Assembly (NCBI GenBank): GCA_016870055.1
Contig: VGCQ01000009.1
Location: 1 to 32,851, forward strand
Origin: Alphaproteobacteria bacterium
GTDB taxonomy: Bacteria > Pseudomonadota > Alphaproteobacteria > Reyranellales > Reyranellaceae
Direction of reading: 5' to 3'
Length of the DNA: 32,851 nucleotides
Position 1 is the first letter of the stretch. Every line of letters starts with the position of its first letter. The position numbers were made by a program, and so were the translations under genes. Below are positions 10,300 through 12,158 of this stretch, one piece after another. The notes under the pieces are model-generated. The model searched no databases and had not been told where the DNA came from. It saw only the letters and a program-made list of their open reading frames with translations.

Positions 10300-10989
10300 T
10301 CAGCGGTCTTGATCCCGCGCGAAGACGTAGCCCGCGCCGCGCACCGTCAATATCCGTCGCGGCTTCCTGGGGTCGTCCTCGATGGCGGCGCGGATGCGCG
10401 AGACATGGACATCGACCGAGCGGTCGAAGGCTTCGAGCTTCTCGCCCGTCAGGAGATCCATCAGCGCCTCGCGCGACAGTACGCGACCGGCGCGCTCGGC
10501 CAGAGCCAGCAGCAACGCGAACTGATAGGATGTGACGGCGCGTTCCTCGCCATCGACGCGCACCACGCGGGCGCCCTTGTCGATCTCCAGCCGGCCGAAG
10601 CGCAACATTTCGGCTCTGGCCGGCGCACTCTTGCGGCGCAGGATGGCGCGCAGCCTCGCCTGCAGCTCGCGCGGCTCGAACGGCTTGGCGAGATAGTCGT
10701 CGGCGCCGATTTCCAGGCCGACCACTCGGTCCATGGGTTCGCCGCGCGCCGTCAGCATCAAGATCGGCAGGTCGGAGACGGCGCGCAACCGACGGCAAAG
10801 TTCGAGGCCGTCGATGTCGGGCAGCATGAGGTCGAGGATCACCGCATCAAAGGCTTCGCGCTTGAGCAACGCCTCGCCCTCACGGCCGGTCTTGGCGAGC
10901 GTCAGGCGAAAACCCGCCCCGCCGAGATAGTCGGAAACCATCGTGGCGAGGCGGTCGTCGTCGTCGATCATCAGGACGCGTTCGGCCAT
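10300..10989 (-). CDS. OmpR/PhoB-family response regulator
   Basis: MAERVLMIDDDDRLATMVSDYL, VILDLMLPDIDGLELCRRLR, ADDYLAKPF, C-terminal wHTH (RILTVRGAGYVF). Confidence 0.95.
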   Translation of the reverse strand: MAERVLMIDDDDRLATMVSDYLGGAGFRLTLAKTGREGEALLKREAFDAVILDLMLPDIDGLELCRRLRAVSDLPILMLTARGEPMDRVVGLEIGADDYLAKPFEPRELQARLRAILRRKSAPARAEMLRFGRLEIDKGARVVRVDGEERAVTSYQFALLLALAERAGRVLSREALMDLLTGEKLEAFDRSVDVHVSRIRAAIEDDPRKPRRILTVRGAGYVFARDQDR

Positions 10990-11033: not shown

Positions 11034-11519
11034 TCAGCCGCGCTTGGCCCAGTGATCGCCCCAGCTCTTGAAGAAGGCCTGGCGCTGCGCGGCGCTCAGC
11101 ACGTTGCCGGCGTCGGTCAGCGCCCGCGTGAAGCGCCGGGAGGCCTCGTCGGCCGCCTTCATCTGCTCGGCCCGGATAGCCTCGATGCGCGCCGGATCGA
11201 TGGTCGGCGCTTCCATCGCGGCCACCAACGCCTTGCGCGCTTCGACGCGTTTTTCGTTCAGCGGCTTCATGTCCTTGAAGGCGGTCTGCAGGATATCGGT
11301 GACCTTCTTCTTCTGCTCGGCCGTGGCGTCGGTCGCGTTCAGCGCCTTGCCGACGCGCTTCTCGATGCGTTGCTGGAAGGCGCCGGGGTCGAAGGCCTGG
11401 CCGTCGCTGCGCGCCTCGGCGACACCGGCGGTCATGGCAATGCTGCCGGCCAGCAGGGCGGCCATCACGGTTGTCAGGCTCTTGCGCCGGCTGGTGATCG
11501 GCTCGAGGTTGTTCGTCAT
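11034..11519 (-). CDS. Spy/CpxP-like periplasmic protein (LTXXQ family / periplasmic heavy-metal sensor type)
   Basis: Signal peptide (MAALLAGSIAMTAGVAEA), helical LTXXQ-like region with DATAEQKKKVTDIL and LSAAQRQAFFKSWGDHW; directly upstream of RR-HK. Confidence 0.75.
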   Translation of the reverse strand: MTNNLEPITSRRKSLTTVMAALLAGSIAMTAGVAEARSDGQAFDPGAFQQRIEKRVGKALNATDATAEQKKKVTDILQTAFKDMKPLNEKRVEARKALVAAMEAPTIDPARIEAIRAEQMKAADEASRRFTRALTDAGNVLSAAQRQAFFKSWGDHWAKRG

Positions 11520-11599
11520 GGTGGTCTCCATCGTCTTGAAGGGCGGGCTGCCCGTGATCGTGATATGGAGCCGCTCGGTTTCACCTTCCTCTCGCCAGT

Positions 11600-11614
11600 G
11601 TAAAGTTGCGTAAA
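11600..11614. promoter_or_regulatory. Candidate CpxR-type box GTAAA-N5-GTAAA (TTTAC-N5-TTTAC on the minus strand)
   Basis: gtaaagttgcgtaaa read directly; lies between the Spy-like/RR/HK operon (-) and the GNAT gene (+). Confidence 0.6.
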
Positions 11615-11615
11615 G

Positions 11616-12158
11616 ATGATCGCGTTACGGACCGAACGACTGACCTTGCGGCCCCTGGTCGAGACCGATGCCGAGGCCTATGCCGCCATGCGCTACCATC
11701 CCGAGGTGGCGAAGTGGCTGTCGCCGGCTGACGATGAGCCGCTTCGTGCGGCGCGGGCGTCGATCGGCCGCTTCGCCGCGAGCTGGCAGGAGCGCCGTTA
11801 CGCCCCGTGGGGCGTGTTCCGCCAAGGCACGCTGATCGGCCATGGCGGCTTGAACTTCGTGCCGGAATTCGGCGAGACCGAAGTCCTGTGGGCGTTGCAC
11901 CCCGACGCCTGGGGTCACGGCTATGCCACGGAAGTGGCGCGGGTCGCCCTTGCCTACGGCTTCGACGATCTTGGTCTGGAACGGATCTTCGCGATCACGC
12001 TTCCCGACAACACAGCCTCGCAGGCGGTGATGAAACGGCTTGGCCTCACGTACCGGCGCCGCGTCACCTACAAGGGGTTCACCGACATCGTCTGGTTCGA
12101 CACGAATCGCGAGATCTGGAAAGCCGGCGCCATGCCGAACTCTTCGGTCGCATCGTAG
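11616..12158 (+). CDS. GNAT family N-acetyltransferase (RimJ/RimL-like)
   Basis: LRTERLTLRPLVETDAEAYAAM; GHGYATEVARVALAYGFDDLGLERIFAITLPDNTASQAVMKRLGL. Confidence 0.93.
   Translation: MIALRTERLTLRPLVETDAEAYAAMRYHPEVAKWLSPADDEPLRAARASIGRFAASWQERRYAPWGVFRQGTLIGHGGLNFVPEFGETEVLWALHPDAWGHGYATEVARVALAYGFDDLGLERIFAITLPDNTASQAVMKRLGLTYRRRVTYKGFTDIVWFDTNREIWKAGAMPNSSVAS

Follow-up and report, generated by a model that had tools for sequence, protein, structure and literature searches.

Analysing a 32,851-nucleotide stretch of Reyranellaceae DNA (here, the window), we found that a CpxR-type box in front of an operon for a Spy/CpxP-like periplasmic protein, a response regulator (RR) and a histidine kinase (HK), all on the minus strand and in this order, makes up the distal part, two of four half-sites, of a 38-bp element (11578-11615). 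With a probability of roughly 0.8, its sequence points to an auto-activating operator-promoter of this operon, to which two tandem dimers of the operon's own regulator would bind. Reyranella species and Enhydrobacter aerosaccus are the close relatives that carry names.

A four-half-site element upstream of a Spy-like operon

An earlier, sequence-only reading of this DNA had reported two GTAAAG half-sites 10 bp apart, forming an exact GTAAA-N5-GTAAA, and this is confirmed: GTAAAGTTGCGTAAAG at 11600-11615 holds the exact repeat as GTAAAGTTGCGTAAA (11600-11614), with the hexamer starts 10 bp apart. The positions it gave for the Spy start (11519), the regulator (10989-10300), CATATC (11567-11562) and the ATG of the divergent GNAT acetyltransferase (11616) are likewise right. 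The repeat is the sole match to GTAAA-N5-GTAAA in the window even when one mismatch is allowed (0.04 expected in shuffles). The genome search that the same reading had proposed did return a single exact match from all 5.0 Mb of the genome, yet the reversed control pattern had one match as well, and one-mismatch matches were rarer genome-wide than those of the reversed control (11 vs 30). Since the control pattern is as frequent, the bare 15-mer is weak evidence that does not go beyond chance genome-wide; the evidence is its position and its conservation.

Table 1. Features of the operon and of its upstream region
Feature	Position	Strand	Remarks
Half-site H1, CTTTAC (GTAAAG on +)	11610..11615	-	distal dimer; 51-52/52 Spy promoters per position, a conservation inflated by row selection
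Half-site H2, CTTTAC	11600..11605	-	10 bp from H1; H1+H2 = CpxR-type box
Half-site H3, CGAGAG here (consensus SGARAN)	11589..11594	-	11 bp from H2
Half-site H4, TGAAAC here (consensus CGAAAC)	11578..11583	-	11 bp from H3; -35 place
-10-like hexamer CATATC (consensus CATNTC)	11562..11567	-	fixed distance from H4; putative -10
Probable transcript start ACGGG and small 5' hairpin cggg(CAG)cccg	11544..11555	-	putative start site
Spy/CpxP/CnrX-superfamily periplasmic protein, 161 aa	11034..11519	-	Pfam Metal_resist, LTXXQ above cut-off
OmpR-family response regulator, 229 aa, candidate ligand of element	10300..10989	-	
HAMP-HisKA-HATPase sensor histidine kinase, 424 aa	9008..10282	-	
GNAT acetyltransferase, divergent neighbour	11616..12158	+	probably incidental to element

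Read in the Spy direction, the half-sites CTTTAC, CTTTAC, CGARA(C) (SGARAN) and YGAAAC (CGAAAC) start at 0, 10, 21 and 32 of the element, in steps of 10/11/11 bp, and a CATNTC hexamer lies at 48 from the element start. The 52 Spy promoters aligned were selected by a pattern over H1/H2, so that only the conservation of H3, H4 and the hexamer is unbiased. H3, which played no part in row selection, carries a mean information of 1.35 bits vs 0.52 in the spacer before it, H4 carries 1.74 bits, and the hexamer counts are C51 A52 T51 N T52; these three blocks are constant while the spacers vary. H3/H4 differ from H1/H2 in the central three bases. No sigma-70 consensus promoter was found in 11400-11750 and the element shows no -35 hexamer; the lack of a sigma-70 consensus agrees with a promoter in which an activator site takes the place of the -35. 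The stem of the 5' hairpin has at least 4 bp in 49 of the 52 Spy loci (shuffled mean 2.6), with a variable loop, and is not common to the non-Spy promoters that bear the element. The window has no match to Rfam families.

The first gene product scored above the Pfam gathering thresholds of both LTXXQ (39.9 vs 29.2 bits) and Metal_resist (32.2 vs 24.3 bits), and belongs to the Spy/CpxP/CnrX superfamily. Its AlphaFold model is helical (mean pLDDT 81) and has CnrX, CpxP and ZraP as best Foldseek matches in the PDB, at probability 1.00 and with no E-value below 0.001, suggesting a CpxP-like fold.

Conservation within and beyond the Reyranella group

Relatives were fetched by similarity of the Spy protein and not by the motif, making this an unbiased test of conservation. 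The element was present upstream in all 28 untruncated Reyranella-group loci, where it scored 23-27 of 27 specified positions as against a maximum of 19 in 2800 shuffles; the box was exact in 26 of these loci, and in the other two a half-site differs by one substitution. Of 61 genus genomes, 56 contain the 38-bp motif, with zero control matches; the own genome has one copy at up to 3 mismatches, again with zero control matches. Conservation of the repeat in orthologous loci, on which the earlier reading had made its box depend, was thus found throughout the 28 untruncated genus loci and in operons of other lineages. Its proposal that the box lies upstream of the Spy operon and may autoactivate it is strengthened by this conservation and by the fixed distance to the -10-like hexamer, which bear out a placement suited to autoactivation.

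Two loci of the group depart from this arrangement. At L127 (G069:C26) the regulator and kinase were not found beside the element and Spy looks truncated, but GNAT and HisN are still there, as is the element in a slightly decayed form. At L020:120-160 (G009:C207) Spy and GNAT are separated by a reading frame that resembles an IclR-family regulator; a degenerate second half-site array stands beside the GNAT start, and the array on the Spy side is intact.

Outside the genus, five loci of other Alphaproteobacteria (L188, L190-L193) have the same operon head, with regulators 67-71% identical to that of the window, and carry the element at 24-26/27 (shuffle maximum, 19). Promoters of Burkholderiales match weakly, at 16-19/27. 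The exact motif, at up to 2 mismatches, is absent from 381 sampled genomes of the same class outside the genus, and a relaxed motif gave one match beyond the genus, at L216 (G245, of another family), where a similar four-half-site array stands upstream of a methyltransferase-like gene with no Spy-like gene recognised nearby.

An OmpR-family regulator that is not CpxR by curated models

By curated equivalog models, the RR scored below the cut-offs of CpxR (164 vs 341 bits) and OmpR (238 vs 331 bits) and failed that of PhoB as well; the HK reached 119.7 bits against a CpxA cut-off of 486, and its best model, RstB, was also under cut-off. Its identity to E. coli proteins is higher for OmpR (46.5%) than for CpxR (37.6%). 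In the tree the RR falls into a clade of 19 rows (support 98/99) that includes S. meliloti SMb21561 along with proteins of Burkholderiales and Myxococcota; this clade lies in one group with OmpR, CpxR and RstA, on long branches throughout, and the tree does not decide on CpxR orthology. Of the earlier designation as a CpxR-type box, what stands is an OmpR-family box before an LTXXQ gene; the RR itself is not a CpxR by the curated models and is closer to OmpR. The recognition-helix region is nearly invariant across the clade, and as far as sequence can tell the operon's own regulator likely binds the element. The literature searched gave nothing relevant on two-component systems of Reyranella.

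The element before other genes

Some of the 61 genus genomes carry an extra copy of the element. Those looked at have an unchanged spacing and precede other genes. At L078 (G009:C734) the gene set is a pump made of an MdtA/MuxA adaptor and an MdtB/MuxB permease. Elsewhere the element stands before class-C beta-lactamase-like serine hydrolases (L072, L073, L074, L076/L056 and L124), a diverged Spy paralog (L123), an alpha/beta hydrolase (L071) and a reading frame without assigned function (L122). These promoters are not all mutually orthologous, and descent of one locus therefore does not explain their common pattern.

In the own genome, the search for a wider regulon gave no further site of the extended motif at up to 3 mismatches, and one-mismatch boxes were not above control; with one exact site in the genome, a regulon of many boxed envelope genes of the enterobacterial type is not seen. 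Three other genomes (G018, G072 and G012; loci L079, L080 and L081) have GTAAATTTATGTAAA or GTAAACTTATGTAAA in a similar context; these sites lack the extended element, are probably coding sequence and were left aside. Tentatively, and less likely than not, the regulators may form an OmpR-family clade apart from CpxR, spread over Alpha- and Betaproteobacteria and Myxococcota, whose operator has four half-sites and no -35 and whose regulon is, at least in the Reyranella group, nearly limited to a single promoter. Such a regulator would target little beyond the operon that encodes it, its kinase and the Spy-like chaperone; in some species an efflux pump or a hydrolase would be recruited occasionally.

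Model of autoregulation and its alternatives

Starting from an element whose conservation, spacing and recurrence before unrelated genes are observed, we infer as follows what binds it, how this activates the operon and which signal sets it off. The phosphorylated OmpR-family regulator encoded by the operon would bind the four direct half-sites from 11615 to 11578 on the minus strand, sitting as two head-to-tail dimers in the 10/11/11-bp steps. The proximal dimer would occupy the -35 place and recruit RNA polymerase to the CATATC -10. The kinase would sense envelope stress, and chaperone, regulator and kinase would be raised together, the Spy-like protein being the presumed main effector.

That the repeat arose by chance and has no function would agree with the frequency of the bare 15-mer, which is about that of the reversed control genome-wide, but position and conservation in 28/28 untruncated Spy-fetched loci contradict it and leave it a negligible chance of being true. 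A more serious alternative, though still one we consider doubtful, takes H1/H2 alone as the operator, a CpxR-type box for a single dimer, and H3/H4 as conserved on some other account, for instance as an element of an alternative sigma factor or the site of a second protein. The sequence of H3/H4 is indeed unlike that of H1/H2, and the box of E. coli cpxP is not followed by a recognisable H3/H4; given the central-base differences, the regulator might not be what recognises the proximal pair. However, H3 and H4 continue the 10/11/11-bp register and accompany H1/H2 in unrelated promoters too.

The remaining alternatives concern the acetyltransferase. The earlier reading had proposed a two-way switch, in which a single dimer bound at 11600-11615 would switch on the Spy operon and, lying over the GNAT start codon, repress the acetyltransferase; the second GTAAAG does abut the GNAT ATG in the window, as it does in most loci that have an adjacent GNAT. 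Yet the distance between box and GNAT varies among the Spy loci (0 bp in 26, 9-10 bp in 19, and 24 and 30 bp in the other two), 13 distinct Spy loci keep an intact box with no adjacent GNAT, and no GNAT match lies beside the box in L188, L190, L192 and L193 outside the genus. The varying distance and the 13 GNAT-less loci mean that the switch is not a conserved feature; this part of the earlier reading was not upheld, and we regard it as unlikely. The same abutment in 26 loci, along with the fact that no Shine-Dalgarno sequence was seen in the window, could also suggest that the block serves chiefly the acetyltransferase, as its promoter or start region and perhaps for a leaderless transcript. 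This is very improbable, given that the element is kept in the 13 loci without GNAT, stands before unrelated genes in the Spy direction and is followed by a -10-like hexamer and an ACGGG start that face the Spy way. Under the autoregulation model, the divergent acetyltransferase is probably incidental and outside the mechanism.

Comparison with known systems

The closest known case, S. meliloti SMb21562-SMb21561-SMb21560, encodes an LTXXQ protein, an RR and an HK in the same order as the window, and its regulator is about 68% (67-69%) identical to the window RR and shares a supported clade with it. Its promoter on pSymB, in a locus of strain AK57 that we equated with SMb21561 by replicon, gene order and content and not by locus tag, has TTTAC-N5-TTTAC in the same orientation before the operon; it keeps H1, H2 and H4, but H3 is displaced, unlike in the window. 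In 2010 the SMb21562-60 promoter was reported to match GTAAAN5GTAAA, with expression of the three genes raised 69-, 27- and 14-fold in a tolC mutant (PMC2912261). That induction is a measurement in S. meliloti. The two-half-site box alone was reported there; four half-sites are resolved in the window. As this case had already been reported, novelty is limited: the window holds a Cpx-like operon of a known sort, akin to that of S. meliloti, and what is new is the better-resolved operator anatomy.

As in the window, the LTXXQ periplasmic accessory gene of E. coli, cpxP, is preceded by a box of the GTAAA-N5-GTAAA type that has the same orientation; however, cpxP is divergent from cpxRA, whereas the Spy-like gene is the first of its operon, and the TTTAC-N5-TTTAC-like box of cpxP has no recognisable H3/H4 after it. 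The window thus shares with enterobacterial CpxRA systems a box before an LTXXQ accessory gene, but its RR and HK fall under the CpxR and CpxA cut-offs and it has no broad set of sites. In P. aeruginosa, a Cpx-type box lies before an LTXXQ gene and before the MuxA/MdtA pump, with overlapping tandem sites at muxA (PMC5063474, PMC12802237). The pump link of L078 parallels CpxR-muxABC but was seen in this one relative and not in the window genome, and against 37 transcriptional units predicted in P. aeruginosa PAO1 the window genome has one exact site. PhoB sites overlap the -35 (PMC3348028), and pho box promoters resemble the window in having direct repeats at about one helical turn that overlap the -35 region. 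The window appears to share with them direct repeats in the putative -35 position without a -35 consensus; it differs in half-site sequence, in having four half-sites and in its AT-rich distal pair.

Together, the analysis maps precisely the putative operator of a Cpx-like stress system in Alphaproteobacteria, for which the literature searched offers one other source, a transcriptome study. It marks the GNAT part of the switch model as the one to drop, and hints that a system of this sort may regulate almost nothing but itself.
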